Origin: Streptomonospora nanhaiensis
GTDB lineage: Bacteria; Actinomycetota; Actinomycetes; Streptosporangiales; Streptosporangiaceae
Length of the DNA: 64,000 nt
Reading direction: 5' to 3'
NCBI RefSeq assembly: GCF_013410565.1
Contig: NZ_JACCFO010000001.1
Coordinates: forward strand, 2,976,001 to 3,040,000
In this document: in pieces, positions 5,965 through 41,381 of the stretch
How positions within the stretch are numbered: the stretch's first letter is position 1
Layout: each line of letters starts with the position of its first letter
The notes under the pieces: model-generated
Seen by the model: the letters and a program-made list of their open reading frames with translations, nothing else
Databases searched by the model: none
Told to the model about the DNA's origin: nothing
Translations under genes and position numbers: made by a program

Positions 5965-6011
5965 GAGGGCTCGTCTTCTCTCGGTCTCTCGTATCGATTG
6001 GGCCGCGGGGA

Positions 6012-6482: not shown

Positions 6483-6484
6483 GC

Positions 6485-6856
6485 TTACTTCTCCTTCTTA
6501 GCGCCGTAGCGGCTGCGCGCCTGCTTGCGGTTGCGCACACCCTGGGTGTCGAGCGAGCCGCGGACGATCCGGTAGCGGACACCCGGCAGGTCCTTCACAC
6601 GGCCGCCGCGCACGAGCACGATGGAGTGCTCCTGCAGGTTGTGGCCGATGCCGGGGATGTAGGCCGTGACCTCGATCCCGCTGCTCAGCTTCACACGGGC
6701 GACCTTGCGCAGCGCGGAGTTCGGCTTCTTGGGCGTAGTCGTGTAGACACGCGTGCACACACCACGACGCTGCGGACTCCCCTTCAGCGCCGGGGTCTTG
6801 TTCTTCGCGACCTTGTCCTGTCGGCCCTTGCGGACTAGCTGCTGGATGGTGGGCAC
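6485..6856 (-). CDS. rpsL: 30S ribosomal protein S12
   Basis: S12 is at the decoding centre and controls accuracy. The 123-residue protein begins [15 protein letters not shown]. The loops [11 protein letters not shown] (Lys43, Lys44) and [12 protein letters not shown] (Lys88) are unchanged at the residues whose mutation gives streptomycin resistance, so the predicted state is streptomycin-sensitive. The start is GTG at 6854-6856 with GGAG 7 nt upstream. It is the first gene of the str operon, with a long untranslated leader. Confidence 0.98.
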
Positions 6857-7114
6857 CGCGTCTCCGTGTCTTTCTCGTGACCTACGCCGGTTCTGTTAGC
6901 CGATGTGTCGCTATGACCTGCTTGGCTTCCCGTCCTCCCCTACCCCCGCACTCGGGCGTGTCGCGCTCTACCCGATGCATGGCGGAACGAGCAAACCCGA
7001 CCCTGCGGTCAATTTCTCTGGGAGGAGGTGTCACGCGCCGCGTTCTGCTTTGGCGTCCAAGCCGGTTCGAATACGCGCACGTGCTGACCCGTCGACTCAC
7101 GGGCACGAAGTTAG

Positions 7115-7143
7115 AGAGTACCGAAGGCTGAGTAACGGGTCAA
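7115..7143 (-). promoter_or_regulatory. Predicted str-operon promoter with a ~250-nt leader
   Basis: On the minus strand TTGACC (7138-7143) is followed after exactly 17 nt by TACTCT (7115-7120), a good housekeeping sigma pattern (-35 five of six; -10 of the TAnnnT form). Transcription would start near 7,108, leaving about 250 nt before the rpsL GTG. The rest of the 584-bp gap (6857-7440) holds no gene I can support. Confidence 0.6.
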
Positions 7144-7342
7144 AACGGCGACCGCTACCCTCGGTACCCGGCTCCGAAGCCTCATGCTGTCGTAGGTCTC
7201 TGTCCATTGTACGGGCTCCGCCGAGTGCTCGCGCGGTGATTACCGGCGGCCCCGCTCCACCTGATCTCGGTGATCTTGCCCGGGCCGGCGGGGCGGCCCG
7301 CCGCGCCGCCCGTTCGGGCCCGGCCCCTGCCCCCAACGGCGC

Positions 7343-7373
7343 GGTGCCCGGCGCGGAGTCCGCGCCGGGCACC
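7343..7373 (-). terminator. Terminator hairpin after the disordered membrane protein
   Basis: A 15-bp perfect inverted repeat (arms 7343-7357 and 7359-7373, GGTGCCCGGCGCGGA type) starts 68 nt after the stop at 7441. There is no U-tract; this is the common GC-rich actinobacterial form. It separates this gene from the str promoter. Confidence 0.7.
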
Positions 7374-7440
7374 GTGCGTGACCGCGGCCGTTCGGAAGGT
7401 GGCCGCCCCTCGCGGCGGTGCCGCGGGGGGCGCCGCCTCA

Positions 7441-10400: not shown

Positions 10401-11139
10401 CCTGGCCCGGCCACAGCGACTCCGCCGGGCCGGCGGGCGCCTGGGGCGCCTGGTCCGGGCGGCCGCGCACGGTCGAGCCGAAGCCGGGGTAGCCGCCGGT
10501 GCCGCCGCCGAGCGCGCTCAGCGGGGAGCCGGGCTCGCCGCCCGGCCGCCCACCGCCCGCGGGCCGGGCGTAGCCGCCCGCGGGGTCGCCGAAGTCGCGG
10601 CCCGGGTCGGCGCCGGCCGCCGGGCCCGGCGCCGGGGTGCCCGGCCGGGGCCCGGCCTCGCCCGGAGCGGCGGGGCCGGTGGTGCCGAGGTCGTAGGCGG
10701 CCTCAGCGGGCGCGGGCCGGTCGGCCTGCGGCGCCGGGGCGGCGTAGGGCCGGATGGGCGAGGGCGGGTCGCCCGCCGGCGGGCCGGGCGGCGCCAGGGG
10801 CGAGCCGCCGAGGTCGCCCAGGGCCGAAGGGTAGGGCTCCGCCATGCCGGGGCGCTCGCCGCTCAGGCCCGGGTACCCCCCGCTGTTGGGGAAGGTCGGG
10901 CGGGGCCGCGCGGGCTCCCCCGGCGCCCCGGGCTCCTGGCGGGACGCCTCGGGCGCGGGGCCGCCGGGCGCGCCGCGCCCGGGGTCGCCGCTCTCGGCGC
11001 TGTCGCTAAAGGTCTCCTGGTACTGCGCCTGCGACCGGTGTCGGTCGCCGCTCGGCCGGAACCACGATTCCGTGTTCTCCTGCCGGGCGCCGTGTTCGTC
11101 GTCGGACGGCACGTACCGCTGTCCCCCGTTGTCCGTCAC
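7441..11139 (-). CDS. Giant intrinsically disordered protein with C-terminal DUF4190-like membrane anchor
   Basis: Hypothetical protein of 1,232 residues. Residues 1 to about 1150 are almost wholly Gly, Pro, Ala, Asp, Glu, Arg and Ser with no recognisable fold. They are built from loose repeats such as DPLGG, APGERPSYGADPLGG (twice), TQA(M/V)PAVADELGPDLR (twice) and an exact 55-residue duplication. The last 74 residues hold two hydrophobic helices (about 1160-1182 and 1209-1231) separated by a basic linker RARRAIQRSNGELEG, the layout of DUF4190-type domains. The protein is therefore probably membrane-tethered with a long cytoplasmic tail. I chose GTG at 11137-11139 because GGGAGA lies 10 nt upstream; an earlier in-frame start exists at 11229. 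Function unknown. It sits alone between the str and rpoBC operons. Confidence 0.75.
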   Translation of the reverse strand: MTDNGGQRYVPSDDEHGARQENTESWFRPSGDRHRSQAQYQETFSDSAESGDPGRGAPGGPAPEASRQEPGAPGEPARPRPTFPNSGGYPGLSGERPGMAEPYPSALGDLGGSPLAPPGPPAGDPPSPIRPYAAPAPQADRPAPAEAAYDLGTTGPAAPGEAGPRPGTPAPGPAAGADPGRDFGDPAGGYARPAGGGRPGGEPGSPLSALGGGTGGYPGFGSTVRGRPDQAPQAPAGPAESLWPGQDGAGAPGRPAEQRPAADDGPDTAPFAGTGRPAPGDTDPRPWGGPAAPGEAGPRPWGTPAADTERPSFGDRPVPGAPAERFGAGEGPAFGERTDPGAPAREWSAPAGPAAGDPLSTDPLSGGRAADSAAPWDTTRPGAAPAASDPAGAPGERPSYGADPLGGSTSAGPADDAWRRPTDTDRGGERDHRADTPGYADPLGGPAGAPGERPSYGADPLGGREGSDTPADRWGEPRPDRYGAPSGAAEPGRHDDPAPRSATDSGAGAPWGGGDPLAPESRQERRESADPLGADPGRAAEWGTGQWETGARPAADLGAPAGGAERGAEADPFRRERPDSGDPFGGGFPRSPESGAERTASAWDTGARGAADPGAPTRDSGGDPLAPESRQERRESADPLGADPGRAAEWGTGQWETGARPAADLGAPAGGAERGDGYDDELSRPYSSRIPADEDLGATSPGYRQSSAPAGTPAANGPPAGDTGADRRADDPARADTGLGGDLGTGSGNTWAFSRDDERLPEHIRQAAAEAQRKRRDGSPEHTTQVFRSGGDTPGTPGGRPDTGPRPGTPVTDLGDDPLAAIAAQQARARSDDPEPPASAADPGWGGDPGPGTQAVPAVADELGPDLRESRRGERPGEDPGAPRWSEREPRPADEGGPSTQAMPAVADELGPDLRDEPRRDPLGGDRGAPWAAEDPAARRDPGGYGAEPGGGYDRESADRAGDPFGAAPEPYGSAAGDPAAAAPGDRTQAFPPGGFTGAPGTDHGRGEPADPWRREPEAPSPYLDGGAEYPRGHREGGEFGGAPQGYADTPYGDRREAPEPGGDPYGTRHQEPYAGEYGDRHHGRHGEYGEAEGHPDTRDDRGGRGADAPTRRGRSGRDPVADDFPGFDDRPPGAAAGDAYPGYDNIDYWPETAPGAAATLWLGIIGLVPVIGLFTAIAALVTGPRARRAIQRSNGELEGLNLVRGGTITAWVGIALFVVEAVVFVATTVLS
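9114..9604. repeat. Exact 167-bp direct repeat inside the disordered-protein gene
   Basis: Positions 9114-9280 and 9438-9604 are identical over 167 bp by eye, offset by 324 bp (108 codons, so in frame). Identity at third positions shows a recent duplication or gene-conversion event rather than protein-level convergence. Shorter repeats lie nearby (around 9757 and 9929). Confidence 0.9.
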
Positions 11140-11215
11140 TGTCTTCGATCTCCCGACCGCGCGTGCGCGCTGATGTCTCCATCCGCATACGAGTATGCCG
11201 AGGGTGAACGACGAA

Positions 11216-11254
11216 CGGCGGCAGTCCACTCCAAAAGGGAGTGGACCACCGCCG
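11216..11254 (-). terminator. rpoC terminator hairpin
   Basis: Arms 11216-11221/11249-11254 (CGGCGG/CCGCCG) and 11224-11232/11238-11246 (GTCCACTCC/GGAGTGGAC) form a two-part stem with a 2x2 internal loop and a 5-nt AAAAG loop. It lies 42 nt after the rpoC stop, and on the minus strand it is followed by a moderately T-rich stretch. This closes the rpoBC unit. Confidence 0.75.
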
Positions 11255-11296
11255 CTGCTTCGTCAAGCAATCGATGTCACCGATTGACTCTTCAGG

Positions 11297-15172
<3,876 letters not shown>

Positions 15173-28832: not shown

Positions 28833-29261
28833 TCAGGCCAGGCGGACGACGGCGGTGGAGCGCGCCAGGACCTTGGCGCCGCCGGAGCGGGCGGTCAGGG
28901 CGATCCGCACCCGGTTGCCGTCGAGCTTCTCCTTGACGACACCGCTGACGGTGACCTCGGCGCCGGTGTCGTCGTCGGGCACGACCACGGGCGCGGAGAA
29001 CCGCACCTTGTACTCGACCAGGGCGCCGGGGTCGCCGGCCCAGTCGGTGACCAGGCGCCCGGCCTGGGCCATGGTGAACATGCCGTGGGCGATCACGTTG
29101 GGCAGGCCCACCGACTTGGCGGTGCGCTCGCTCCAGTGGATCGGGTTGAAGTCGCCGGAGGCCCCGGCGTAGCGCACGAGGTCGACCCGGCGCACCGGGA
29201 AGGCGCGCTCGGGGATCTCGGTGCCGACCTCGACGTCGCTGTAGGCGATGGCGGCGGTCAT
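28833..29261 (-). CDS. MaoC-like hot-dog dehydratase, HadB-like subunit
   Basis: A 142-residue single hot-dog protein expected to pair with the upstream gene to dehydrate 3-hydroxyacyl thioesters. The hydratase-2 motif is present: YAGASGDFNPIHWSERTAKS with Asp and His catalytic residues, then GLPNVIAHGMFTMAQ. Its ATG overlaps the preceding stop by 4 nt (29258-29261), so both are made together. Mycobacterial HadB is the closest named relative. The role in this organism (fatty acid or polyketide chain) is inferred. Confidence 0.88.
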   Translation of the reverse strand: MTAAIAYSDVEVGTEIPERAFPVRRVDLVRYAGASGDFNPIHWSERTAKSVGLPNVIAHGMFTMAQAGRLVTDWAGDPGALVEYKVRFSAPVVVPDDDTGAEVTVSGVVKEKLDGNRVRIALTARSGGAKVLARSTAVVRLA

Positions 29262-29758
29262 ACGGCGCTCCCCTCCTGGGCGGCGGCCGTGCTCGCGGCC
29301 GGCGCGCCCGCGGCGGCGCCCCCGCGCACGACCAGCATGTTGACGGCGGTCACGACGTGCTCGCCCTCGACGGTGCGCATCTCGCTTTCGAGGGTCAGCA
29401 GCTCGTTGCCGCCCAGGGCCGAGACCGAGGCCACGCGGGTGACGGTCTCGACCACGTCGCCGGCGTGCAGCGGGCGCCGGTAGGCGAAGCTCTGGTCGCC
29501 GTGGACCACCATCGAGAAGTCGAGCCCGAGCTCGGGGTCGACCACCGCCTGGGACATCCCCTCCATGCCCATGATGACCGGGAAGGTCGGGGGCGCGATG
29601 ACGTCGGGGTAGCCGTGGGACCGCGCGGTGGCGGTGTCGGTGTAGACCGGGCTGGTGTCGCCGATCGCCTCGGCGAACTCCCGGATCTTGCCCCGGGTCA
29701 CCTCGTAGGGCTGCGGGGACCGGTACTCCCGGCCCACCAGGTCGCGGTTGATCGCCAT
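29258..29758 (-). CDS. MaoC/FAS1-type dehydratase-like protein, HadA-like subunit
   Basis: A 166-residue hot-dog protein beginning MAINRDLVGREYRSPQPYEV. It shows FAEAIGDTSPVYTD and YPDVIAPPTFPVIM but lacks the full catalytic DxxxxH helix of its partner, as in mycobacterial HadA, which serves as the substrate-binding subunit. The start ATG 29756-29758 has GGGAG upstream; an in-frame extension to 29806 is unlikely. The last ~20 residues are Ala-rich. It forms an operon with HadB-like and probably murB, downstream of rpmG. Confidence 0.87.
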   Translation of the reverse strand: MAINRDLVGREYRSPQPYEVTRGKIREFAEAIGDTSPVYTDTATARSHGYPDVIAPPTFPVIMGMEGMSQAVVDPELGLDFSMVVHGDQSFAYRRPLHAGDVVETVTRVASVSALGGNELLTLESEMRTVEGEHVVTAVNMLVVRGGAAAGAPAASTAAAQEGSAV

Positions 29759-30080: not shown

Positions 30081-30195
30081 GTCGGAGTGCCTTTCTCACG
30101 GGAAACAACGGGACACAACTGCGCGCCCACGCGCCCGCCCGGGGGCCGGGCAGCAGGACGGCGCCCCGCGAACGGGACGGCCTGGGCGTGGGCAG

Positions 30196-30268
30196 TAGCG
30201 GAGGCCGGACTCGAACCGACGACACAACGATTATGAGCCGTTTGCTCTACCAACTGAGCTACTCCGCC
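30196..30268 (-). tRNA. tRNA-Met (CAT), elongator type
   Basis: A 73-nt cloverleaf: acceptor GGCGGAG/CTCCGCT, D-arm GCTCAGTTGGTAGAGC, anticodon loop CTCATAA, T-loop GGTTCGAGTCC, discriminator A, no encoded CCA. It lacks the unpaired first base of an initiator. A lysidine-modified tRNA-Ile also reads CAT, but sequence and location fit elongator Met. Confidence 0.93.
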
Positions 30269-30381: not shown

Positions 30382-30457
30382 TGGAGCCCCTTTACGGAAT
30401 CGAACCGTAGACCTTCTCCTTACCATGGAGACGCTCTGCCGACTGAGCTAAAGGGGC
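30382..30457 (-). tRNA. tRNA-Thr (GGT)
   Basis: Acceptor GCCCCTT/AAGGGGC, D-arm GCTCAGTCGGCAGAGC, anticodon stem TCTCC/GGAGA around loop ATGGTAA (anticodon GGT), T-loop GGTTCGATTCC. Unlike its neighbour it encodes the 3' CCA (30382-30384). It is probably cotranscribed with tRNA-Met and rpmG from the promoter just upstream, and forms the left boundary of the accessory island. Confidence 0.95.
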
Positions 30458-30567: not shown

Positions 30568-32772
30568 TCATCCGATGCCCCGCAGCGGGTCGGCCCGCGG
30601 CGCGCCCCAGGGGTCGCCCGACCCCGGCGGCGCGGCCGGTCCCCCGGCCCCGGCGGCGCCCCCGCCCGTGCGGTCGGTGTCGGCCACCCACACGTTCGAC
30701 ATGGCGTCGCGCTGGATGCGCCGGATGTCGGCGGGCAGCCCGAGCCGGTGCAGCGCGTCGGGCAGCCGGGTGTCGTGGGTGAACACCACCAGTTGGCGGT
30801 GCCGCCCCACCTCGGCCAGCACCGTCGACAGCCCTTCCACGGTCTCGGTGTCCATGGCCTGCACGGGGTCGTCCAGCAGCAGGAACCCGAACGGGTTGTC
30901 GGGCACCAGCGTGCGCGGCAGGCAGATCGACAGGGCCAGCGCCTGGAACTCTCCCTGGCTGAGCAGGCCGGGCGAGGTCCCCTCGGCCTCGGCCCCGTCC
31001 ACGGCGACGTCCACGGCCACCCGGCGGCGGGCGCCCCGGCCCACCAGGCGCAGCGCCTCCAGGTCGATGCGGCGCTCCTGGCGCAGCCGGTGCCACACGT
31101 GCTCGGCCTGGGCCGCCAGCGGGCGCAGCCGCTCGGCGCGGATCTCGCGGGCGATCCCGGTGAACCACTCCAGCGCCTGCTCGGCCGGGCGCAGGGCCTC
31201 GCGCGCCGCCGTGGCCGCGCGCGCGTCCTCCACCCAGGCCGCCAGCTGCTCGGCGAGTTCGGACCAGCCGTCGGTGGGGTCGTCCAGCCGCTCGCCGGCG
31301 GCCTTGCGGGCGGCCACGGCGGTCGAGCGCAGCCGGCGGCCCACGGTCTCGATGTGCTCGGCCAACTGGGTGAGGTCGGTGATCTCGGTGCCGGCCTCCC
31401 ACTCGGCCCACACCCGGCCCAGCTCGGAGTCGGGCGGCAGCCACGCCGGCATCGGCGCCATCAGGAACCGGGCCTGGTCGCGGGCGTTGTCGGCGCGCTC
31501 GTAGGCCGCCGCCGCACCGGCCGCCACCGGCTCCAGGCGGCGGATCTCGGCCTCGGCGCGGCGCACCCAGTCGCCGTCCAGCGCGCCGCCGGCCCCGCAG
31601 GTGGGGCAGTCGGTCTCGGCGGGGTGGCGCCGGTGGTGCTCCAGGGCGCGGCGCAGCAGCTCGGCGACGCCGCGCGCGCGGTCGCCCTTGGTGCCGGCGG
31701 CCATGGCCAGCTCCATGGCGGCGCCGCGCAGTTCGTTGACCACGTCGGTGAGCAGCGCGCGCTCGGGGACCGACAGCCGGCGCAGGCGGCGCAGCACGAG
31801 GTGCTGGGCGGGGTCGGCCGGGCCGTCGTCGGCGGCGATCTGGGCCAGGCGGTCCAGGTCGATGGAGGGCGCCGTGAGGAGCTGGGCGGCCAGCCCGGCG
31901 CGGCGGTCCGACGACGACCGCAGCCGCTCCAGCAGATAGCCGTGCTCGCGGCCGGGCCGGTCGCGCCGCTTGGCGTACTGGTCGCAGGCGCGGGCCAGGC
32001 GGCGCTCGGCCTCGGTGAGGTCGGTCAGGCCCAGCAGCGCGGTGAGGGTGTCGTACAGCTCGGCGGCCCGCCCGGTGACGGCCCGGCCGAGTTCGTCGTA
32101 GGACAGGAACGGCCGGTAGCGCGACAGCTCGGGGTCCCAGCCCATGCTGCGCAGCGGCACGACCGCGCCGTCGGGCCCCACCACCTCGCCGCGGGCCGAG
32201 CGGACGCTGTCGCCGCTCCAGACCCGGGTGACGCGGGTGGGGCCGCGGTCGCCGGCCAGCTGCAGCTCGACGGTGATCTCGGTGCGCTCGTCGAAGTGCA
32301 GGTTGCGCCAGCCGTCGCGCCAGCCCGCGGGCATGGCGTCCCAGCGCAGGTTGCGGCCGGTCAGCGCGGCCTCGGCGGCCTCGGCGAAGCTGGACTTGCC
32401 CGACCCGTTGCGGCCGACGATCACGGTGAGGCCGGGGCCGGGTGCGAACTCCAGGGCGGCGGGGCGGCCGATGCCGCGGAAGCCCTGGACCTCGATGCGG
32501 CGCAGGAAGCTGCGGCGGGCGTGGGCGGCGGGCGGGAGCCGGCGGGCGTCCTCGGCCTGCTCCACGACCGGCCAGGGGATGTCCTCGCCGCGCGCGCAGG
32601 CGGCGATCGCGTCGTCGCCGCGCAGGGCGGCCAGCACCCAGCGCCGCGCCGCGGGGTCCAGGCCGGAGTCGGCGAGGCGGTCGAGGAGGGAGCGCGCGGC
32701 CACCGCGCTGCTGTCGTACCGGCGCGGGGCAGCCCCGGTGGAGGTCGCAGGCCCTGTCGTCACTGTCGTCAC
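30568..32772 (-). CDS. Rad50/SbcC-like ATPase with CPTC zinc hook, downstream of the condensin-like operon
   Basis: A 734-residue SMC/Rad50-type ATPase. Walker A GRNGSGKS is at 120-127, the mid-protein zinc-hook motif CPTC at 389-392 is flanked by helical segments, the ABC signature is LLSQGEFQALALS and Walker B is FLLLDDPVQAMD, followed by the switch histidine in VVFTHDTR. About 85 N-terminal residues precede the ATPase head. Such proteins tether or process DNA ends with a nuclease partner, but no SbcD-like nuclease is nearby. It lies 93 nt after the JetC-like gene, in the slot where the Wadjet nuclease JetD normally sits. The start is uncertain (GTG at 32772, 32775 or 32763). The C-terminal 30 residues are disordered. 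Confidence 0.8.
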   Translation of the reverse strand: MTTVTTGPATSTGAAPRRYDSSAVAARSLLDRLADSGLDPAARRWVLAALRGDDAIAACARGEDIPWPVVEQAEDARRLPPAAHARRSFLRRIEVQGFRGIGRPAALEFAPGPGLTVIVGRNGSGKSSFAEAAEAALTGRNLRWDAMPAGWRDGWRNLHFDERTEITVELQLAGDRGPTRVTRVWSGDSVRSARGEVVGPDGAVVPLRSMGWDPELSRYRPFLSYDELGRAVTGRAAELYDTLTALLGLTDLTEAERRLARACDQYAKRRDRPGREHGYLLERLRSSSDRRAGLAAQLLTAPSIDLDRLAQIAADDGPADPAQHLVLRRLRRLSVPERALLTDVVNELRGAAMELAMAAGTKGDRARGVAELLRRALEHHRRHPAETDCPTCGAGGALDGDWVRRAEAEIRRLEPVAAGAAAAYERADNARDQARFLMAPMPAWLPPDSELGRVWAEWEAGTEITDLTQLAEHIETVGRRLRSTAVAARKAAGERLDDPTDGWSELAEQLAAWVEDARAATAAREALRPAEQALEWFTGIAREIRAERLRPLAAQAEHVWHRLRQERRIDLEALRLVGRGARRRVAVDVAVDGAEAEGTSPGLLSQGEFQALALSICLPRTLVPDNPFGFLLLDDPVQAMDTETVEGLSTVLAEVGRHRQLVVFTHDTRLPDALHRLGLPADIRRIQRDAMSNVWVADTDRTGGGAAGAGGPAAPPGSGDPWGAPRADPLRGIG

Positions 32773-32865
32773 CACACACCCGCTCGATTGTTGGCCTTGC
32801 ACTGCAGAGTAGGACAAGGTCGGGCGAAAGCTATAGGTCGGGGCGGGCGGTGCGCGGGGCCCCGG

Positions 32866-35800
32866 TCACACCCCCACGAGTTTGCGGCGGCTGCCGTCCC
32901 AGGTGAAGTGCAGGGTGGCGATCCCGGGGACGGCGGGGTCGCGCAGGCACTCGTAGATGTCCAGGCTCGGCACACTCGGGAAGCACCCCCAGACGCGCTC
33001 GGAGGTGAGCACGAAGTCCAGGTCCAGCTCGACCAGCAGGCCGAGCAGGCGGCCGTGGGTGGGCTCGTCCACCTTGGCGAACGCGTCGTCCAGCAGGATC
33101 AGCCGGGGCGCGGCGGGCGCCTGGGCGGCCAGGGAGCCGAACTGGGCCGCGGCGGCGGCGAACAGCACCAGGTAGGCCACCACGCGCTGCTCGCCCTGGC
33201 TGAGGGCGGTGCGGTGGGTCAGGCGGCGCTCGCGGTCGGGGTGGGCCGCGTCGGTGACGTAGACGGTGAACGCGAACCAGGAGCGGTAGTCCAGGGCGGC
33301 GCGCAGCTGGGCACCGCCGGTGGCGGTGGGGTCGAGGCGGCGGATGGCCTCGATGCAGCGGCGCAGCGCGTCGCGCAGCCGCGTGGTCTCGACCCGGGTG
33401 CGCTGCTCGGCGGGTGTGGCCAGCAGCGGCACGACCGCCCGGACGTCCTCGTCGGCGTCGGGGGCCAGCTGCCAGTCCAGCCGCACGCCCAGGCCCTGGG
33501 AGGTGGTGACGTCGCGCAGCACGTCGTTCATGGTGGAGATCAGCGCGCGCGCCTCGTCGATCTGGCGGGAGAGGTGGCCGGCCAGCTCGCCGAGCAGGTG
33601 GCGCTCGAAGGCGTCCTCCTCGCGCAGCAGGGCGGCCTCCTCGGCGGTGGCCACGGCCCGGTCGAGGCGTTCGGCGTAGGCGGTGATGTCGTGGCTGCCG
33701 TCGTCGCCGTGGACGGTGAGCCGCTTGAGGCCGGCGGGCTCGGTCAGCTCGGTGCGGGCGCCCACGGCGTCGCTGCCGGCCAGGTGGCGGTGCAGCTCCT
33801 CGCGGCGGCGCAGGATGCCGCTGTCGTCCAGTTCGTGCTCGGCCGGCTCGCCCAGCTCCTTCTCCAGGGCGGTGAGCAGGGTGTCGAGCGCGGCGACGCG
33901 GCGGGCCAGGGCGTCGTGGTCGGCCGCGGGCTCGGGGGAGGCACCGTCAACACGGTCAACACCGTCACCACTGTCGGCGCCGTCGGCGCCGTCGGCGGGA
34001 CCGGCCGGCTCGGCGGGGTCGGAGCCGCCGGGGGCGGCGACCGCGGCGGTCTCGGCCGCCAGCGGCGCGACCGACTCCAGTCCGGCCGCCGCCAGCAGCG
34101 CGGAGTCGGGGGTGCCGTCGGGCCGGGTGAGCATGCCGCGCAGCACGTCGCCGGCCGCCAGCGCCCGGCGGGCCTGCTCGGCGCGCTCCAGCACGGCGGT
34201 CTCCAGCCGGGTCTCGGCGGCCACGCGCTCGTCGCGGGCGCGCTGAGCCTCGCGCTCGACCTCGGGCAGCCGCGCGGCGGCCTGCTCCATGCGCTCGCGG
34301 ACCTGGTCGACGGCGGCGGCGATCTGCTCGGGCGCGGCGGCGCGGGCGCGGTCGGTCAGCTCGATCTCGCGCCGCACGGTGATCATGTCGCTGATGGCGC
34401 CGGTGCGGGCGTCCTCGGCGATCACGCGGCCCGAGCGGGCCTCCTCCCAGGCGGCGATGTCGGCCTGGTAGTCCTCCAGCAGCACGGCCAGGGCCGCCAG
34501 GTCGCGGTGGCCGTCGGCCAGCTCCGCGCGCAGCCGCTCCAGCGCGGCGCGGGTGGCGCGCAGCGCCTCGACGCCCGTGGGCAGGTCCAGGCGGGCGGCG
34601 GGCCCGGCCAGGTCGGCGCGCAGCTGCAGCGCGGTCTCGCGCGCCTCGGCGAGGTCCTCGCGCGCGGCGCTGTAGGCGCGCTGGGTCTGGGCCAGCCACG
34701 AGCGGGCGTTGTCGAGCCCGGCCCAGGCCGCCTGGAGGTCGGCGGAGTCGGGCAGGGCGCGGTCGGTCTCGACGAGGGCGGCGTGCAGGCGCTCGATGTC
34801 GCCGCGCCGCTCGCCGGCCTCGGCCAGCAGCGCCTCGGCGATGGCGATCCGGCGGTCGGCGTTGGCCCGCTGGCGGTCGCCCGCCTCGGCGCGGGCCTCC
34901 TTGCCGATGTACTCGGCGGCGGGCTTGGTGTGGGAACCGGAGGCCACGCCCAGGCGCCAGCGGCCGTCGAGGGCGACGGCGGTGGCCACGGGGGGCGGGC
35001 TGTCGCGGCGGTGGCGCGGCTCGGGTTCCTCCTCGCCGGGGGCGGCCAGCAGGCCGATGGAGTCGAGCAGGGCCGAGACGGCGCCGGCGGTGGTGCCGGC
35101 GGGCAGCGGCTCGGCGGGCACCAGCACCTCGCGCAGGCTGCGGCCCTTGACCGGGCGGCCGGGGGCCAGCACGACGTCGCGGGTGGCGGGGTCGGTGAGG
35201 GAGCCGTCGGCCGAGATCCAGCCGGCCAGCAGGCCCGAGGCCTCCAGCGCGGCCTCCAGGTTGGCGCGCTCGGCGGCGCCCAGGCCCGTGGCGAAGTCCA
35301 CGGCGAGGTGGAAGGGCGCGCCGGCGGAGTCGTCGCGCACGGCGGTGGCCCAGGCGGGGCGCTCGGGCGCGGTGTCGCCGTCGGCGGCGGCGCGGCGCTC
35401 CGACAGCTCGTCCAGTTCGGCCGCCAGCTCCCGCTCCTCGCTCACGGCGGTGTCGCGGCGGGTGCGCAGTTCGCGCAGCAGCGGGTCGACGATGCCGTGG
35501 GCGTGGCGGGCCACCCGCTCGCCCACGTCGGCGTCGAGCACCCGGAGGGTGTCCTCCAGGGGCAGCTCGACCAGCGCCTCCAGCTCGGCCAGCGAGGCGC
35601 CGAGGTCGGTGTCGGCGGCGGTGGCGCGCAGGCCGGTGCTCCACTCGCGCACCCGCGCGGCGTAGCCGGCGCTGGCGGCGCGCACGGCGTCGATGGCGGC
35701 CTGCTCGCGTTCGCGGGCGCGCTCCAGGGCGGCCTCGGCGGCCTCGGCCTCGCCGGCCAGCGCGGCCTCGCGCTCGTCGGCGGCGGCCCGCTCGGCGGCG

Positions 35801-37569
35801 CGCTCGATGAGGTCGGCCGCCACGGCGGCGCGCTCGGCGGCGGCGGTGTCGGCGGCGGCGTAGCGGTCGTGCAGCTCGGCCAGGCGGTCGCGCAGGTCGC
35901 CGACGTCCAGGCCGGGCACGGGCTCGCGCTCGACGGCCTGCTCCAGGCCCTCCAGGTTGACCCGGGTGACGCTCTCGCGGGGGGCCAGGGTGGTGGCGAC
36001 CGGGTGCGGCACCTGGCCCAGCCCGGCGGTGTCCACGCCCGCGGCGCGCGCGGACTCCGCCATCTGGGCGTGCAGGCCGCGCAGGCCCTCAAGCGCGCGG
36101 TCGATGGCGGCGGTGTCGGCGGCCATGCGCCGCTTGGCGTGCTCCTCGTTGGTGATGGCGTAGCCGGCGGCGGCCGAGGCGGCCTCGGCGGCGCGGATGT
36201 AGGCCGAGACGGCGGCGTCGCGGGCCTGCTGCTCGAAGTCGGTGGCCCCGGCCGAGGACGCTCCGCCGGCGGTGAGGGTGGCGGCGTCGGAGGCGGCGGT
36301 GTCGCGGGTGCGGCGCAGCCGGTCGCGCTCCTCCTGCACGGCGCTCTCGGCGGTGACGAGGCGTTCGAGGTCGTCGGTGAGGCGGTCGACCTCGGCGTCG
36401 CGGCGGGCGTGCGCGCGGACCTGCTCGCGCGCGGCGCGGGTCTGGACGCGCAGGGTGCGGTGCAGGTAGCCGCGGTAGTCGGTGAGGAACCCGGCGACCT
36501 GCTCGCGGGCGGTGCGCAGCGCCTCCAGGCGGGCGCGCGCCTGTTCGAGGTCGGTGATGTTGCGCGCCATCTCGTCCAGGACGCCCTGGTCCATGGGCGG
36601 CAGCGCCTCGGCCAGCACCGACACCAGCTCGCCGGCCTCCAGGCGCTCGCCGATGGTGGGGCGGCGCAGCCGGTAGAGCAGGTGGATGAGGTTGCGGTAG
36701 CGCACGGGGTCGTCGATGCCGAACAGTTCGCGCATCACCCGGGCGCGGTAGGCCACCGGGCTGTCGTAGCAGTTGTCGGGGCCGACCTCGGTGCGCAGCC
36801 GGTCGATGGGCATGGGGCGGCCGTCGGCGATCAGCTTCAGGTCGGCGCCGAGTTCGCGCTCGGTGACGAAGAACACGCTGCGGGCGTCGGTGCCGGGCGA
36901 GGCGGTGACGGCGGCGCCCAGGGTGATGCGGGCGGGCTGGGCCGCCTCGGGGGTCTCGGGGGTCTCGGCCGCGGCGCCGCCGCGGGTGAACTCCACCCAC
37001 AGGTAGCCCAGGGTGGAGGCGGCGCGCGGGTCGCCGCCCTCGGCGCCGTCGGGGTCGTCGGCCGCGCGGGCGGGCTCGCGGCCCTCCAGCAGCAGCCAGC
37101 GCAGGCTGGTGCGGCTGCTGCCGGTGGTGTCGAGGCGGCGGGCGTCGCCGTCGAGCAGGAACGGCAGCAGCATCTCCAGCGCCTTGGACTTGCCGGCCCC
37201 GTTGCGGCCGCGCAGCAGCAGCCGGCCCTGGGCGAAGTCGAAGACGTGGTCGTCGTAGTGCCAGACGTTCTGGATTCCGGCGCGGTTGAGCCGGTAGCGG
37301 CCGGGGCGGCGGCGCTCGGGGTCGGGCCGGCCGGACTCCAGCGGCTCGGGCTCGGGGTCGGGCTCGGCCGGGGCGGCGGTGGGGGGCTGCTGGGCGCCGA
37401 GCAGGTCGCCGGGGCGCAGGGCGTCGGCGATGGAGCCGCGGCGCCGCGCCTCGGCGCGCGCCGCCGCGTCGGCCTCGGCCGCCTGGGCGCCGGAGGCGGC
37501 GCCGTGCGGGTCGCCGTCGCCGCCCAGGGGCGACGGTTCGGCTCGCCCGTTCGCGTTGGCGGCGGTCAT
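32866..37569 (-). CDS. JetC-like (TIGR02680 family) condensin SMC ATPase of a Wadjet type II-like system
   Basis: A 1,567-residue MukB/SMC-like motor expected to extrude DNA loops. After a ~70-residue disordered start comes PGRYRLNRAGIQNVWHYDD, typical of TIGR02680, then Walker A GRNGAGKS at 121-128. A long Ala/Arg/Glu-rich coiled-coil region (about 330-1390) follows, with a central hinge-like block around 640-760. The C-terminal head has signature RTALSQGEQRVVAYL, Walker B LILLDDAFAKVDE (Asp1494, Asp1495) and the tail TSERVWGCFPSVPSL. The start ATG 37567-37569 has AAAGGA upstream. It follows the JetB-like gene by 202 bp. All catalytic motifs are intact. Role (plasmid defence versus chromosome organisation) is discussed in the findings. 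Confidence 0.9.
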   Translation of the reverse strand: MTAANANGRAEPSPLGGDGDPHGAASGAQAAEADAAARAEARRRGSIADALRPGDLLGAQQPPTAAPAEPDPEPEPLESGRPDPERRRPGRYRLNRAGIQNVWHYDDHVFDFAQGRLLLRGRNGAGKSKALEMLLPFLLDGDARRLDTTGSSRTSLRWLLLEGREPARAADDPDGAEGGDPRAASTLGYLWVEFTRGGAAAETPETPEAAQPARITLGAAVTASPGTDARSVFFVTERELGADLKLIADGRPMPIDRLRTEVGPDNCYDSPVAYRARVMRELFGIDDPVRYRNLIHLLYRLRRPTIGERLEAGELVSVLAEALPPMDQGVLDEMARNITDLEQARARLEALRTAREQVAGFLTDYRGYLHRTLRVQTRAAREQVRAHARRDAEVDRLTDDLERLVTAESAVQEERDRLRRTRDTAASDAATLTAGGASSAGATDFEQQARDAAVSAYIRAAEAASAAAGYAITNEEHAKRRMAADTAAIDRALEGLRGLHAQMAESARAAGVDTAGLGQVPHPVATTLAPRESVTRVNLEGLEQAVEREPVPGLDVGDLRDRLAELHDRYAAADTAAAERAAVAADLIERAAERAAADEREAALAGEAEAAEAALERAREREQAAIDAVRAASAGYAARVREWSTGLRATAADTDLGASLAELEALVELPLEDTLRVLDADVGERVARHAHGIVDPLLRELRTRRDTAVSEERELAAELDELSERRAAADGDTAPERPAWATAVRDDSAGAPFHLAVDFATGLGAAERANLEAALEASGLLAGWISADGSLTDPATRDVVLAPGRPVKGRSLREVLVPAEPLPAGTTAGAVSALLDSIGLLAAPGEEEPEPRHRRDSPPPVATAVALDGRWRLGVASGSHTKPAAEYIGKEARAEAGDRQRANADRRIAIAEALLAEAGERRGDIERLHAALVETDRALPDSADLQAAWAGLDNARSWLAQTQRAYSAAREDLAEARETALQLRADLAGPAARLDLPTGVEALRATRAALERLRAELADGHRDLAALAVLLEDYQADIAAWEEARSGRVIAEDARTGAISDMITVRREIELTDRARAAAPEQIAAAVDQVRERMEQAAARLPEVEREAQRARDERVAAETRLETAVLERAEQARRALAAGDVLRGMLTRPDGTPDSALLAAAGLESVAPLAAETAAVAAPGGSDPAEPAGPADGADGADSGDGVDRVDGASPEPAADHDALARRVAALDTLLTALEKELGEPAEHELDDSGILRRREELHRHLAGSDAVGARTELTEPAGLKRLTVHGDDGSHDITAYAERLDRAVATAEEAALLREEDAFERHLLGELAGHLSRQIDEARALISTMNDVLRDVTTSQGLGVRLDWQLAPDADEDVRAVVPLLATPAEQRTRVETTRLRDALRRCIEAIRRLDPTATGGAQLRAALDYRSWFAFTVYVTDAAHPDRERRLTHRTALSQGEQRVVAYLVLFAAAAAQFGSLAAQAPAAPRLILLDDAFAKVDEPTHGRLLGLLVELDLDFVLTSERVWGCFPSVPSLDIYECLRDPAVPGIATLHFTWDGSRRKLVGV

Positions 37570-37771
37570 CGCCCGTCCTTTCGCTCTGTGCCGTCGGGGG
37601 TCGCGCCACCGGAGGTTTCCGGGGCGGCGGGACTCGTCGGGGCCGGCCGGAGCCGCGGCGCGCGGGCGGCCGCGGCGGCCCGGCACGCCCGGGGGCCGTG
37701 CGGACCCTGCCATTGTTCCGGATGCGGAGAGTGCTCCTCGTGCGCTCCCCCGCCGCCGGGGGCGTGCGGGG

Positions 37772-39037
37772 TCACAGGCCGCTTCCGGGGGCGGCCGGCG
37801 CGGGGCGGCGGTGGCGGCCGGTGTCGTCGGCGGAGGCGCCCGTGTCCGGCTCGGGGGCGGGGGCCGCTGCGTCGGAGGGGCGCCCGCCGTAGCGCGCGGC
37901 GGCGGCCAGCAGCCACCAGCCGGTGCGGTCGCCGCTGTCGGGGCGGGGGTGGTGCATGAGCCGGGTGTCGCACAGCAGCCGCAGGACGCGGGCGGCGAGG
38001 GTGGCGGGGTCGGGCTCGTGGCGCAGCGCGGAGCGGTCGCCGCCGGTGCGCGCGGCGGTGGCGTGCGCCAGCTCCTCCTCCAGCACCTCGGCGGGAACGG
38101 CGACCCGGGTCTGGGGGGCGGCCGGCCGCAACCGGGCCACCAGGCGCTCCACGAGCAGCAGCGCGGCCTGCCCCACGGGGCCGGCACTGGGGAAGGCGGC
38201 GACCGCGTCGGCCCCGGTGTCGCCCGGCATGATCAGGGCGACCCCCTCGGCGCGGATCTCGGCGTCGCAGCCCAGCAGGTCGCCGAGTTCGGCGACGGCG
38301 CGCCACTGGTGGGCGGCCAGGCGGCGGCGCTGGCGCTCGGAGAGGTCGGCGCGGTAGACCACGGCGGTCTCGGCGAGCGCGCGGCGCAGCGCCACCTCGC
38401 CGGCGTCCTCGCCGGCGGGGTCGGTGGCGTCCATGTCGGCGACGAACGCTGCGGGGTCGTCGGTGGCGTGCGGGGGGTGGGCCACCACCCGGCGCACGAC
38501 CTCGTGGTGCACGGCCAGGTGGACCTCGTGGGAGGAGTCGGCGGCGTAGGCGGGCAGCCGGCCCTGCTCCTCGCTGAGGGCGCCCCAGTCGGCCAGGCGG
38601 CGCAGCGCGGCGGCGTAGGCGCGGCGCTCGCCCATGCGGCGGCGCGGGTCGAGGTCGAGGCCGGCCTCGGCGGCGGCGGCGCTGACGTCGGCGGCCAGGC
38701 CGGCGGCGGTGACGCGCGCGGGCGCCTCGACCAGGACGGCCAGGCTCAGCGCGAGGTAGCTGTAGGTGCGCGGGGAGAAGTAGGCGCCGCTGGGGCGGGT
38801 CAGGGGGCGGGTGGTGCCGCTGACGAGCCCGGTCTTGACCAGCCGCGCGTGGTCGGCCGCCACCTTCAGCTCGTAGCCCAGGACGCGGCGGAAGCGCTGG
38901 ATGAGCCAGTCGGAGTGGGTGCGGATGACCGCGAAGTCGTCGGGGTGGGTGCGGGCGGTGACTATGGGGTCGGCGAGGAGCCGCCGGGCGGCGGCCTGGC
39001 GCTCGCCGATCAGGGCGATGTCGTCCGTTGCCGTCAC
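37772..39037 (-). CDS. JetB-like protein (DUF2398/TIGR02678), Wadjet type II kleisin-associated subunit
   Basis: A 421-residue protein. The N-terminal AAARRLLADPIVTARTHPDD, then WLIQRFRRVLGYELKVAADH and ARLVKTG match the DUF2398 family, whose members act as the MukE-like winged-helix subunit of type II Wadjet complexes. The last ~50 residues are disordered. A perfect AAGGAGG site overlaps the GTG at 39047-39049, so I start at GTG 39035-39037, 11 nt downstream of it; the true start could be either. It lies 93 nt after the JetA-like gene in the same direction. Confidence 0.85.
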   Translation of the reverse strand: MTATDDIALIGERQAAARRLLADPIVTARTHPDDFAVIRTHSDWLIQRFRRVLGYELKVAADHARLVKTGLVSGTTRPLTRPSGAYFSPRTYSYLALSLAVLVEAPARVTAAGLAADVSAAAAEAGLDLDPRRRMGERRAYAAALRRLADWGALSEEQGRLPAYAADSSHEVHLAVHHEVVRRVVAHPPHATDDPAAFVADMDATDPAGEDAGEVALRRALAETAVVYRADLSERQRRRLAAHQWRAVAELGDLLGCDAEIRAEGVALIMPGDTGADAVAAFPSAGPVGQAALLLVERLVARLRPAAPQTRVAVPAEVLEEELAHATAARTGGDRSALRHEPDPATLAARVLRLLCDTRLMHHPRPDSGDRTGWWLLAAAARYGGRPSDAAAPAPEPDTGASADDTGRHRRPAPAAPGSGL

Positions 39038-39130
39038 GGTCGTCGCCACCTCCTTACGTCGCTGGGTCGCCTGGGCGGTCGCGGGCCCGGGGGCGGGCGG
39101 TTCCGGCGGTGTGGGGCCGCCGGTGCGCTG

Positions 39131-39895
39131 TCAGGCCTGGCGGGCCAGTGGTAAGCCGGTTCCCGCCGCGGGAGTGGGGCGGCGGTGGGGGTCGTCCGCC
39201 TCGGGGTCGAAGGGGTCGCCGGAGGCGGCGAAGGGGGTGACGACCAGCCGCAGGCCGTCGAGGGCGAGGTCGCCGCCGGAGCCGCGCAGGGTGAGGGCGG
39301 CCTCGGGGTCGTGGCGGACGTGCAGCCGGATGCCGAGTTCGAGGTCGCCGGCGGACACCGGGCCCCGCGTGGCGTCGCCCGAGCCCAGCGCGGCGGTCAG
39401 CAGCTCCATCAGCACGCCCATGGCGGAGCTGGAGAGGCGGATGCGGGAGTCGGTGCCGGTGGCCTCGGCCAGCACGCGGTGGACCTCCTGGGCGGCGGAG
39501 CGGCGCCAGTGCGCGGAGGACTCCGCGGCGTCGCGCAGCCGGGCGCGCTGGGCGGTGTGGTCGCGCACGGGGTCGGCGGGCAGGGCGCTGGTCAGCCGGG
39601 CGGCGGCGATGTCGGCCAGGGGCGCCTGCCACCAGCTGGTGGTGGCGGCGACGGACTCCTCGCCGGCGCCGCCGAGGTGCGTGGCGCTGTGGGCGGCGAA
39701 GGCGGCGGTGTAGATGCGGTGCGCGGTCTCCGTGTCGGCGCCCTCGAACCACGCGGCCAGGCGCAGCAGGGCCGCGCGGCCGTGCCGGGGCACGGGGCCG
39801 TCGGCCGGCGCGCCGCCGGCGCGCAGCCGCTCCCAGGCGTCGGCGGCACTGCCACCGGCGCCCACCGTCCTCACCCGATCCGCTGAGTCACCCAC
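39131..39895 (-). CDS. Truncated JetA-like protein (C-terminal half of DUF2397/TIGR02677)
   Basis: A 254-residue product. The segments RAALLRLAAWFEG, AHRIYTAAFAAHSATHLGG and SWWQAPLADI match the C-terminal half of DUF2397, the kleisin-like JetA of type II Wadjet, whose usual length is close to 500 residues. The N-terminal winged-helix half is absent: upstream DNA (39896-40120) contains stops in all minus frames and nothing similar. The start is GTG 39893-39895 with only a weak ribosome site. Either the complex works with a short kleisin, or the gene is a 5'-truncated remnant. Family call is by motif and by neighbours. Confidence 0.7.
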   Translation of the reverse strand: MGDSADRVRTVGAGGSAADAWERLRAGGAPADGPVPRHGRAALLRLAAWFEGADTETAHRIYTAAFAAHSATHLGGAGEESVAATTSWWQAPLADIAAARLTSALPADPVRDHTAQRARLRDAAESSAHWRRSAAQEVHRVLAEATGTDSRIRLSSSAMGVLMELLTAALGSGDATRGPVSAGDLELGIRLHVRHDPEAALTLRGSGGDLALDGLRLVVTPFAASGDPFDPEADDPHRRPTPAAGTGLPLARQA

Positions 39896-40120
39896 AACTC
39901 AGCAGACTAAAGACCCCCGGCCACCGACGCGGCCCGAACGCCGCCATCGGGGCCGCTGATGGGCCGGATTTCACGGCGGTGATCTGCGATTTCCGGTCAT
40001 TGGTATTTCTTCGGACGCCGGTTGGCACCCCGCCGCGGCCGGTGCCGGCGGGCCGCCCGCGGCACCCCCGCCGCCGCCGGCGCGCGGGGCCCGCGCGGGG
40101 GCGGAAGCGGGCAACGCGAA

Positions 40121-40192: not shown

Positions 40193-40483
40193 TCAGCGGC
40201 CGTCCCCCCTGGGCTCGGGGATCGCGTTGTACGCGTCCCGCGAGTTCAGGTTGGTCAGGGAGGGCCCGTTGACGCAGTCCCCCGTGGTCTGCGGGGACAG
40301 CACCGGAACGTTGGCGCCGAGTACGGCGACGTTCGTGTTGCACAGCTGGATCGGCAGCACCTGCAGGTTCTGGTTGAACTGCTGATCCGCGCCGCGGTCC
40401 TCGGCCTGCGCCGGACCGGCCAGGAGCAACGCCCCCAAGGCGGCACCGGCGAGCAGACCGGCGGCGGTCACCTTGCGCAGCAT
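40193..40483 (-). CDS. Small secreted two-cysteine protein, chaplin-like, copy A
   Basis: 96 residues: a 27-residue signal peptide ending AQA, then a mature part with DQQFNQNLQVLPIQLCNTNV (residues 33-52) and VPVLSPQTTGDCVNG. The two cysteines, Cys48 and Cys70, could form one disulfide. It differs from its three paralogs by EDRGA after the cleavage site and a 26-residue charged tail (NSRDAYNAIPEPRGDGR). The hydrophobic beta-prone Q-V-P-I-x-x-C-N pattern recalls chaplins, the amyloid surfactants of Streptomyces aerial hyphae, but cysteine spacing is longer (21 versus about 17 residues between). ATG start with AGGAGTCGG upstream. Confidence 0.75.
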   Translation of the reverse strand: MLRKVTAAGLLAGAALGALLLAGPAQAEDRGADQQFNQNLQVLPIQLCNTNVAVLGANVPVLSPQTTGDCVNGPSLTNLNSRDAYNAIPEPRGDGR

Positions 40484-40508
40484 GGAAACCGACTCCTATT
40501 CCGAGGAC

Positions 40509-40751
40509 CTAGTCGACGTTGGCGCCGACGGATCCGTTGGTGCAGTCGCCGGTGGTCTGCGGCGACAGGACCGGCACGGTGACGCCGACCACGGACGCGT
40601 TGACGTTGCAGCCCTGGATCGGGATCAGCTGCAGGTTCTGGTTGTACTGCTGGTCGCCGGAGTTGGTCGCGGCGGTGGCCGGCGAGGCGGCCACAACGGC
40701 CCCCAGCGCGGCGCCGGCGATGAGGCCGGCGATTCCGAGCTTGCGCAGCAT
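40509..40751 (-). CDS. Small secreted two-cysteine protein, chaplin-like, copy B
   Basis: 80 residues. The signal peptide (1-27, ending ATA) is identical to that of copy C. The mature part has ATNSGDQQYNQNLQLIPIQ then GCNVNASVVG and TVPVLSPQTTGDC, with Cys48 and Cys70, ending GSVGANVD. It sits 25 nt downstream of copy C and 25 nt upstream of copy A on one strand, so they are probably cotranscribed. ATG start with GGGAGA upstream. The nearly identical signal peptides show recent duplication, while the mature cores have diverged. Confidence 0.78.
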   Translation of the reverse strand: MLRKLGIAGLIAGAALGAVVAASPATAATNSGDQQYNQNLQLIPIQGCNVNASVVGVTVPVLSPQTTGDCTNGSVGANVD

Positions 40752-40775
40752 GGCTGGTGTCTCCCTCGTCCGCTC

Positions 40776-41033
40776 TTACTTCTTGCCGGTGTCGATGTTG
40801 GTGCCGACCGGGCCGTTGGTGCAGTCGCCGGTGGTCTGCGGCGACAGGACCGGCACGGTGACGCCGATCAGCGCACTGACGTTGGCGTTGCACAGCTGGA
40901 CCGGGACACCCTGCAGGTTCTGGTTGTACTGCTGGTCGCCGGAGTTGGTCGCGGCGGTGGCCGGCGAGGCGGCGACGACCGCACCCAGGGCGGCACCGGC
41001 GATCAGACCCGCGATTCCGAGCTTGCGCAGCAT
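40776..41033 (-). CDS. Small secreted two-cysteine protein, chaplin-like, copy C
   Basis: 85 residues. The signal peptide matches copy B; the core is DQQYNQNLQGVPVQLCNANV with a one-residue insertion (SALIGV for SVLGV) that gives Cys48 and Cys71. It ends NIDTGKK, a lysine tail not seen in B or D. ATG start with AAAGGA 7 nt upstream, the best ribosome site of the four. It follows copy D by 105 bp. Confidence 0.78.
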   Translation of the reverse strand: MLRKLGIAGLIAGAALGAVVAASPATAATNSGDQQYNQNLQGVPVQLCNANVSALIGVTVPVLSPQTTGDCTNGPVGTNIDTGKK

Positions 41034-41138
41034 GGCAATGTCCTTTCGGCTGGAAAAAGTCAGAGAAGTCTTGGCTTGCTGTCCCGGGGGCCACCGGAGG
41101 CGTGCCCGGGATTCACGACGTCGTAGGCGCGCCGGCTG

Positions 41139-41381
41139 CTAGTCGACGTTGGCGGCGACCGGGCCGTTGATGCAGTCGCCGGTGGTCTGCGGCGACAGGA
41201 CCGGCACGGTGACGCCCAGCACCGAGACGTTGGCGTTGCACAGCTGGATCGGCACGACCTGCAGGTTCTGGTTGAACTGCTGGTCGCCGGAGTTGGTGGC
41301 GGCCTGAGCGGGGCCCGCCATAAGCACAGCGCCCATCGCGGCACCGGCGATCAGACCCGCGGCGGCAAACTTCTTCAGCAC
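41139..41381 (-). CDS. Small secreted two-cysteine protein, chaplin-like, copy D (first in array)
   Basis: 80 residues: signal peptide MLKKFAAAGLIAGAAMGAVL and on to AQA27, then ATNSGDQQFNQNLQVVPIQL, Cys48, NANVSVLGVTVPVLSPQTT, Cys70 and PVAANVD. It has a GTG start (41379-41381) with GGGGGA just upstream and a near-consensus promoter about 70 nt further. As the promoter-proximal member it is likely the most highly expressed. Small size, export signal, no charge clusters and one predicted disulfide suggest a self-assembling surface protein. Confidence 0.78.
   Translation of the reverse strand: MLKKFAAAGLIAGAAMGAVLMAGPAQAATNSGDQQFNQNLQVVPIQLCNANVSVLGVTVPVLSPQTTGDCINGPVAANVD

Follow-up and report, generated by a model that had tools for sequence, protein, structure and literature searches.

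A type II Wadjet variant with half a kleisin, no JetD and a neighbouring Rad50-like ATPase: a possible domesticated SMC complex of the Nocardiopsis family

Introduction

The condensins MksBEF and MukBEF may, as reviews have suggested, descend from plasmid-cutting Wadjet systems, and to our knowledge intermediates between Wadjet and condensin are scarce. Here we describe a locus of Streptomonospora nanhaiensis in which a JetA-JetB-JetC (JetABC) operon with a structural maintenance of chromosomes (SMC) ATPase stands beside the gene of a Rad50-like zinc-hook ATPase. The locus lies in a window of 64,000 nucleotides (the whole stretch of DNA that was analysed; contig NZ_JACCFO010000001.1, positions 2,976,001 to 3,040,000), in a genome that 95% identity places in the genus of Streptomonospora mangrovi, and we regard it as a new variant of type II Wadjet that is without two defining features of that type, a whole JetA and JetD (DUF2399), with MksBEF as a partial precedent.

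According to PMC10512200 and the review PMC10586767, a kleisin attaches to the SMC cap by its C-terminus, and its N-terminal region contacts the neck and brings two motors together, a pairing that the review assigns to the kleisin N-termini; PMC10586767 also offers, in MksBEF, a precedent for the loss of JetD. For the ATPase, PMC2610378 gives the nuclease triad of RloC as R-X3-E-X36-52-H, and PMC3710099 describes the nuclease domains of RloC and PrrC as HEPN domains. Our search of the open PMC literature found no paper on a type II Wadjet that lacks JetD and adjoins a Rad50-like gene; it likewise yielded no type II lineage without JetD, no half kleisin that is conserved, and no RloC-like ATPase in disarmed form next to such an operon.

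The locus and its parts

The four genes of the locus are the following:

39131..39895, minus strand: JetA, C-terminal half only (254 residues; predicted head-binding end of the kleisin), by a DUF2397 match
37772..39049, minus strand: JetB (425 residues; KITE subunit; DUF2398), by PF09661 and PADLOC JetB2
32866..37569, minus strand: JetC (SMC ATPase, TIGR02680; probably 1567 residues, with its start at 37569), in an open frame that extends up to 38187
30568..32772, minus strand: Rad50-like zinc-hook ATPase, 734 residues, in an open frame of 749 residues that extends to 32817

Profile matches bear out the minus-strand order that an earlier note, made from the sequence, had read here: half a DUF2397 gene, DUF2398, a TIGR02680 SMC gene and a zinc-hook ATPase. 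JetB has the type II family feature, matching PF09661 over 1-362 of 363 positions with 257.1 bits (cut-off 26.9) and PADLOC JetB2 with 302 bits; its 104.5 bits against TIGR02678 lie below the cut-off of 124.65. JetC likewise has that of type II, with 806.5 bits against TIGR02680 (cut-off 462.85) and 1099 bits against PADLOC JetC2, and it carries the motifs GRNGAGKS (Walker A), LSQGE (signature) and ILLDDAF (Walker B); the Walker A and Walker B patterns are present in 21 of 21 JetC rows and the signature pattern in 20, the exception being L065. The Rad50-like protein matches SMC_N with 53 bits. Its 734-residue form, the length given in the earlier note, fits a start at VVTT, which the gene caller chose in four relatives too (L051, L061, L095, L116), and in the 749-residue frame its motifs lie at 135 (Walker A), 404 (CPTC hook), 619 (signature), 645 (Walker B) and 677 (H-loop), all of them kept in nearly all close relatives. 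The intact Walker A, signature and Walker B motifs that the earlier note had ascribed to both large ATPases are thus confirmed, and they are conserved in relatives.

Conservation and selection

Relatives of the Rad50-like protein were sought in 150 genomes of the GTDB family, in 394 genomes of the class and in a scan of named genomes that covers the best 80 of 330 relatives (L### denotes a locus, G### a sampled genome). In the family sample 52 of 150 genomes encode a relative, 35 of them of a close type (60-100% identical); a JetC match lies nearby on the same contig in 33 of these 35, and the contig ends in the other two (G049, G008). The class sample gave 54 matches in 394 genomes, with 23 of the close type, all in the same family. 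The best 80 divide into 50 close and 30 distant loci, and the close ones come from Streptomonospora, Nocardiopsis, Thermobifida, Marinactinospora, Murinocardiopsis, Allosalinactinospora, Marinitenerispora, Actinorugispora, Allonocardiopsis and their kin. JetC stands by the Rad50-like gene in 47 of the 50; L098 and L099 end just upstream, and in L095 (N. endophytica) the 10 kb upstream hold other genes, while a JetC of this class lies on another contig of its genome. Forty-two loci are complete enough for a comparison of all four genes, which lie on one strand in 41 of them. tRNA-Thr, near the Rad50-like gene, and hadB both flank 50 of 50 close loci; the site is a core chromosomal site and not an island.

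A nuclease-free JetABC operon with a Rad50-like ATPase is therefore a real, conserved arrangement and no strain accident: the genome search that the earlier note had proposed, for TIGR02680 genes beside a CPTC-hook ATPase without DUF2399, recovers a conserved neighbourhood, and the outcome that would have told against it, namely that DUF2399 is always present or that the locus belongs to a single strain, is excluded by the finding of JetD at 0 of 80 named loci (with one JetD query) and of JetC at 47 of 50 close ones. Two irregular loci may be recorded here. In L048 (8752-11773; G147) three genes, two of them ABC-transporter-like by eye, lie between JetC and the Rad50-like gene, and in N. eucommiae (L130) the reading frames of JetB and the Rad50-like gene appear broken, which concerns one genome and may be due to sequencing errors.

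The ratio of non-synonymous to synonymous substitution rates (dN/dS), in three species pairs, is 0.21, 0.27 and 0.39 for JetA; 0.19, 0.23 and 0.31 for JetB; 0.32, 0.23 and 0.28 for JetC; and 0.18, 0.17 and 0.16 for the Rad50-like gene. For the neighbours it is 0.31, 0.21 and 0.12 (hadA), 0.16, 0.13 and 0.11 (hadB) and 0.22, 0.17 and 0.22 (murB). Values of 0.16-0.39 place all four genes under purifying selection; the Jet genes evolve somewhat faster than hadB. Over 38 loci the protein distances of JetC correlate with those of the Rad50-like protein at 0.97, and at 0.82 once the shared background is removed; this residual is the top of 36 gene pairs (JetB-JetC, 0.75; hadB with either protein, 0.63 and 0.67) and agrees with a partnership without being proof of one.

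A half kleisin

The complete JetA of type II Wadjet is not found at the window locus, whose JetA matches DUF2397 (PF09660) only at positions 300-481 of 483 (86.5 bits) and scores 46.9 bits against TIGR02677, under the cut-off of 165.85. The half length had been recognised in the earlier note, which had missed that the same truncation is conserved in 41 of the 42 complete loci; the N-terminal half was found in one, that of Allonocardiopsis opalescens, where JetA is whole (487 residues). Homology to the short form starts at residue 268-283 of the Allonocardiopsis JetA in 19 of 19 loci, and the short-form profile starts at about residue 309-317 of the 500-residue JetA of N. vireti (9qe0). In a search for a hidden N-terminal half upstream, a full JetA query matched that half only in Allonocardiopsis and in a separate second locus, L066; L117 has a long open frame upstream, without a JetA match there.

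An AlphaFold model of the window JetA has a modest mean predicted local distance difference test score (pLDDT) of 71, with residues 121-230 above 88. Its sole Foldseek matches are 9qe0 and 9qe1 (E 3e-3 and 4e-3), and VIA-align fits model residues 107-225 to residues 388-495 of the N. vireti Wadjet-II JetA 9qe1 (106 aligned, root-mean-square deviation 3.9) with a Z of 7.2, well above the next row (3.8), though under 8. On these grounds the retained part is the C-terminal end of the kleisin.

The search for JetD and other nucleases

JetD, a feature of the type II operon, is absent from this one. The window holds no DUF2399 gene, as the earlier note had stated, and none was found elsewhere in the genome (6.28 Mb, two contigs) by PF09664, TIGR02679 or a 12-row profile of JetDs from the family. 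Of the 35 genomes in the sample whose Rad50-like gene is of the close type, 17 have a TIGR02679 match, never near that gene (at two of the loci the contig breaks off), and 18 have none. A PF09664 search alone is weak, giving no match in control genomes either; the family profile was strong in 3 of 3 control genomes. Of the 18 linked genomes in which TIGR02679 finds nothing, 15 were searched with this profile, which gave no match in 13 and only weak scraps in the remaining two (G132, 1.3e-4 over 37 model positions; G023, 0.036, containing a stop). The piece in G132 (C1:97918-98028), in a genome otherwise without JetD, is perhaps a remnant. The suggestion in the earlier note that the Rad50-like protein takes JetD's place finds no support here; the protein is unrelated to JetD. 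The conserved neighbourhood showed no other nuclease gene, and no Mre11/SbcD-type gene was recognised among the genes listed for it in 20 loci, no dedicated Mre11 genome search having been made.

The Rad50-like ATPase and its armed relatives

The distant relatives of the Rad50-like protein (37-43% identical) are free-standing, with JetA, JetB and JetC in 0 of 30 loci within the stretch examined. Each is directly followed by c16, a HEPN-fold gene of about 120-140 residues, in 19 of 19 loci of the first sample and 30 of 30 of the named scan (the sets overlap); c16 occurs in 0 of 50 close loci. The distant proteins are also about 115 residues longer at the C-terminus, and this extension, defined by alignment columns that at least 60% of distant rows but fewer than 30% of close ones occupy, is absent from the close group, window protein included. 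Within it R, E and H are present in 30, 29 and 30 of 30 rows, and in c16 each is present in 48 of 49. An H at 30-70 residues from R-X3-E was found in 43 of 49 HEPN genes and in 11 of 30 extensions, few of which pass because their E-to-H distance is about 73 alignment columns; c16 fits the spacing of the RloC triad in the examples inspected, and the distance in the extension is longer.

HEPN domains are the best matches of an AlphaFold model of c16 (mean pLDDT 89.7). Foldseek gives none at E of 0.001 or below, the best being 0.05 at probability 1.00, with six of the first nine rows titled HEPN; VIA-align gives Z 13.9 to the HEPN protein 2hsb, near the chance level for helical bundles (about 13), with HEPN rows dominating the top. 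An hhalign comparison of the extension with c16 (E 0.0013, probability 18%) weakly suggests that the two are one family. Given the R/E/H extension, the HEPN-like model of c16 and the HEPN nature of the RloC and PrrC nuclease domains, the distant relatives resemble ATPases of the RloC type that carry one or two nuclease-like HEPN parts, both of which are missing from the JetABC-linked form. The earlier note had held that conservation of the Rad50-like gene elsewhere without the operon would tell against it; half of this is so, in that distant relatives do without JetABC, but those are a different, armed form.

On an unrooted Rad50-like tree (quick method without bootstrap) the 50 close rows are gathered in a single branch (support 100), setting aside L130, an artefact row with 14% of columns filled that alone keeps the close label from one clade. 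Parsimony, from its wider spread, would make the armed form ancestral. A record named Streptomonospora nanhaiensis (L121) groups with Nocardiopsis on this tree. The armed module (L136-L165, L067-L085) was seen in Actinomycetota and in metagenome-assembled genomes of Acidobacteriota, Myxococcota and Dormiibacterota, and three of its loci hold type I restriction-modification-like genes. Its HEPN gene has no PADLOC match; the ATPase and HEPN gene together, widespread and unnamed by PADLOC in the scan, are a candidate for an unnamed defence system.

Descent of the operon

A tree of 52 JetC proteins (quick method without bootstrap; long branches L189 and L197 placed unsurely) unites the 21 JetCs linked to a Rad50-like gene in a single clade (SH-like approximate likelihood ratio test 99), nested among JetD-linked type II JetCs. 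Nearest to it are L195 and L196 (JetA of 518 and 500 residues), then L193 and L194, all with an adjacent JetD and with JetA lengths spanning 500-534 residues over the four. Within the clade Allonocardiopsis branches first, with no JetD, a whole JetA and a convergent Rad50-like gene. By this tree, the ancestor of the locus was a type II Wadjet with all of JetABCD, which first lost JetD and afterwards the N-terminal half of its kleisin; because basal Allonocardiopsis, without JetD, keeps a whole JetA, the loss of JetD and the arrival of the Rad50-like gene look older than the cut in JetA. The family thus displays ordered steps, from JetABCD in sister lineages through JetABC with a whole JetA (Allonocardiopsis) to half-JetA in the rest.

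The S. nanhaiensis genome has a second JetABC set near sodA (C1:1485448-1502809; L066, positions 2948-11383), with a whole JetA of 548 residues and also without JetD. At the same site, six further loci (L186, L187, L191, L201, L202, L203) have no JetD match, and L185 (Marinactinospora) has one; JetD was thus lost at the near-sodA site too.

Interpretation and alternatives

Our favoured reading, which we hold tentatively and at somewhat below an even balance of probability, is that of a domesticated SMC complex with half a kleisin and no nuclease, which works with the Rad50-like ATPase to maintain the chromosome. The remaining half of JetA would tie JetB to the JetC head; it could no longer reach the neck of a partner JetC or pair two motors, so that the two-motor extrusion that fires JetD in Wadjet could not occur. 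JetC, JetB and half-JetA would make up a single, open DNA motor or bridge, the zinc-hook protein would be a second DNA-binding and pairing element, and together they would fold, tether or repair the chromosome instead of cutting plasmids. Plasmid cutting by the known Wadjet route is not to be expected, because there is no JetD, the kleisin would be unable to pair motors and the Rad50-like ATPase is without nuclease-like parts; the intact ATPase motifs and the selection on the genes indicate that some function is required. With no JetD, and with a Rad50-like gene that has neither the C-terminal domain nor the HEPN gene, the locus joins two defence-derived ATPases that are both without their effector parts, and it suggests that immunity machinery has been converted to a lasting, non-cutting job in the Nocardiopsis family. 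In its boldest form, which we consider possible and put forward with more reserve, half-kleisin JetABC and a Rad50-type zinc-hook ATPase would be a new class of SMC machine, two disarmed immunity modules joined into a core chromosome-maintenance factor family-wide.

Several points weigh against this reading. Function is read from anatomy and history only, and the role given to the lost part of JetA is taken over from homologous kleisins. The MksF of P. aeruginosa is a full kleisin, and a half kleisin thus lies outside that precedent. Genes that share one vertically inherited site are weaker evidence for physical partnership than genes that became linked several times independently; Allonocardiopsis has its Rad50-like gene in convergent orientation, three genes intervene in L048, and JetC and the Rad50-like gene of N. 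endophytica are on different contigs. The rate correlation may partly reflect the less noisy distances of long proteins (hadB still reaches 0.63-0.67). Additionally, the complex does not replace canonical Smc/ScpA: Smc and ScpA were found in 6 of 6 tested genomes, replacement of Smc-ScpAB is rejected on that count, and since the genomes keep both, the complex is an added machine beside them.

Those irregular arrangements (the inversion in Allonocardiopsis, the split in L048, the separate contigs in N. endophytica) are what one would see if a reduced JetABC and a separate Rad50-like repair ATPase were unrelated neighbours sharing an ancestral site, whose surroundings are all conserved as well. 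We think this rather unlikely, as the effector parts of both were lost in one lineage, the genes share a strand in 41 of 42 complete loci and their residual rate correlation tops 36 pairs. It is unlikely, too, that the system still serves defence, with JetABC and the Rad50-like ATPase sensing foreign DNA and calling in a nuclease or toxin whose gene lies elsewhere. In favour of this, the two parents are modules of defence type, with PADLOC JetC2 and mad3-like matches, and the ATPase motifs are intact, but JetD is missing genome-wide in 13 of 15 tested linked genomes, with weak scraps in the other two, and a fixed core site and vertical inheritance are unusual for defence. The S. nanhaiensis genome also has a separate plasmid-like contig (C2, L205; 14,689 bases) on which genes resembling ParA, FtsK/TraB and GntR were recognised by eye; megablast found no match for it in PLSDB, its circularity is not shown, and a small plasmid may thus coexist with the locus, which weakly fits a lack of plasmid restriction.

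Far less probable is a dominant-negative or regulatory remnant that curbs active Wadjets elsewhere in the genome by binding their JetC or JetB. Many such genomes do have further JetC copies, some with JetD, and half-JetA could cap JetC heads, but 18 of 35 linked genomes have no TIGR02679 match, so that there would often be nothing to curb, and the JetC ATPase motifs are intact. The decaying defence island that the earlier note had entertained is hardly credible: JetD and half of JetA are gone, and L130 has its apparent frame breaks, but these belong to a single genome and are possibly sequencing errors, whereas dN/dS of 0.16-0.39 in three species pairs indicates purifying selection, the truncation is the same in 41 of 42 complete loci family-wide, the start region is conserved and the core site is the same throughout.

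The locus is of wider interest as a natural SMC complex without the kleisin part that pairs two motors in Wadjet and MukBEF. Whether an SMC complex can work without ring closure and motor pairing could be tested on it directly. The locus also points to a partner of the Rad50 type for such a complex, and its carriers include harmless, genetically accessible species, e.g. Thermobifida fusca.

Surroundings of the operon

The four-gene set is bounded by tRNA-Thr and by a cluster of small secreted-peptide genes (from 40193), and the features around it are these:

28833..29758, minus strand: hadA and hadB, core flank of the site, by NCBIfam HadA/HadB matches
30195..30268, minus strand: tRNA-Met(CAT), site flank, by ARAGORN
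30382..30457, minus strand: tRNA-Thr(GGT), site flank, by ARAGORN
39896..39914, minus strand: conserved stretch gtctttagtctgctgagtt, immediately 5' of the JetA start, kept in 31 aligned upstream regions

The block at the JetA start, GTCTcTAgTCTGCTGAGtTGTGGG (window 39880-39914), is strikingly conserved in 31 loci, and in many of them a TGAGT...ACTCA inverted repeat spans the start codon. The stretch at 39896-39914 is possibly the promoter of a leaderless operon; the block with its repeat is perhaps an autoregulatory site or such a promoter. Tandem genes for small signal-peptide-bearing proteins (NSGDQQ..NQNLQ..TTGDC) occupy window 40193-41381 and also lie 5' of JetA in many relatives; the one protein tested has no Pfam family above cut-off. 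A lipoprotein-like family, c10, with the motif TWCLPECQDDPYPV lies 5' of JetA in 13 of 20 loci (e.g. L058:14656-15177), not in the window, and a c10 homologue is also found near the armed Rad50-like gene of G026 (L079).

Comparison with known systems

The best defence-library matches of the Rad50-like protein are PADLOC mad3 of MADS (1.6e-21) and LmuB of Lamassu (9.3e-14), but no further MADS or Lamassu genes were seen beside its gene. With Rad50/SbcC it shares the ABC head, the CPTC hook cysteines and the SMC_N match; it has only 27.6 bits to NCBIfam Rad50, of the Rad50-Mre11 (SbcCD) system, where the cut-off is 700. With RloC and PrrC it shares a Rad50-like ABC ATPase with a zinc hook, but it is without the C-terminal R-X3-E...H domain that, in its distant relatives, resembles the RloC triad described in PMC2610378. 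The E-to-H distance of these armed relatives (about 73 alignment columns) exceeds the 36-52 of RloC, and they have a separate HEPN gene; the PrrC family model AAA_13 finds weak sequence matches or none.

Like MksBEF, the locus keeps SMC, KITE and kleisin genes together without a nuclease; the kleisin with both SMC-binding ends that belongs to that type is not found, the N-terminal half being missing. MksBEF of Pseudomonas aeruginosa belongs to another Wadjet branch and is not known to have a half kleisin or a Rad50-like partner. With type II Wadjet (N. vireti nvJET, PDB 9qe0/9qe1) the locus shares the JetA-JetB-JetC order and the families, and JetC and the whole JetA match 9qe0 chains (8.3e-51 and 2.2e-16); it differs from that system in having no JetD, no N-terminal half of JetA and an added Rad50-like gene.

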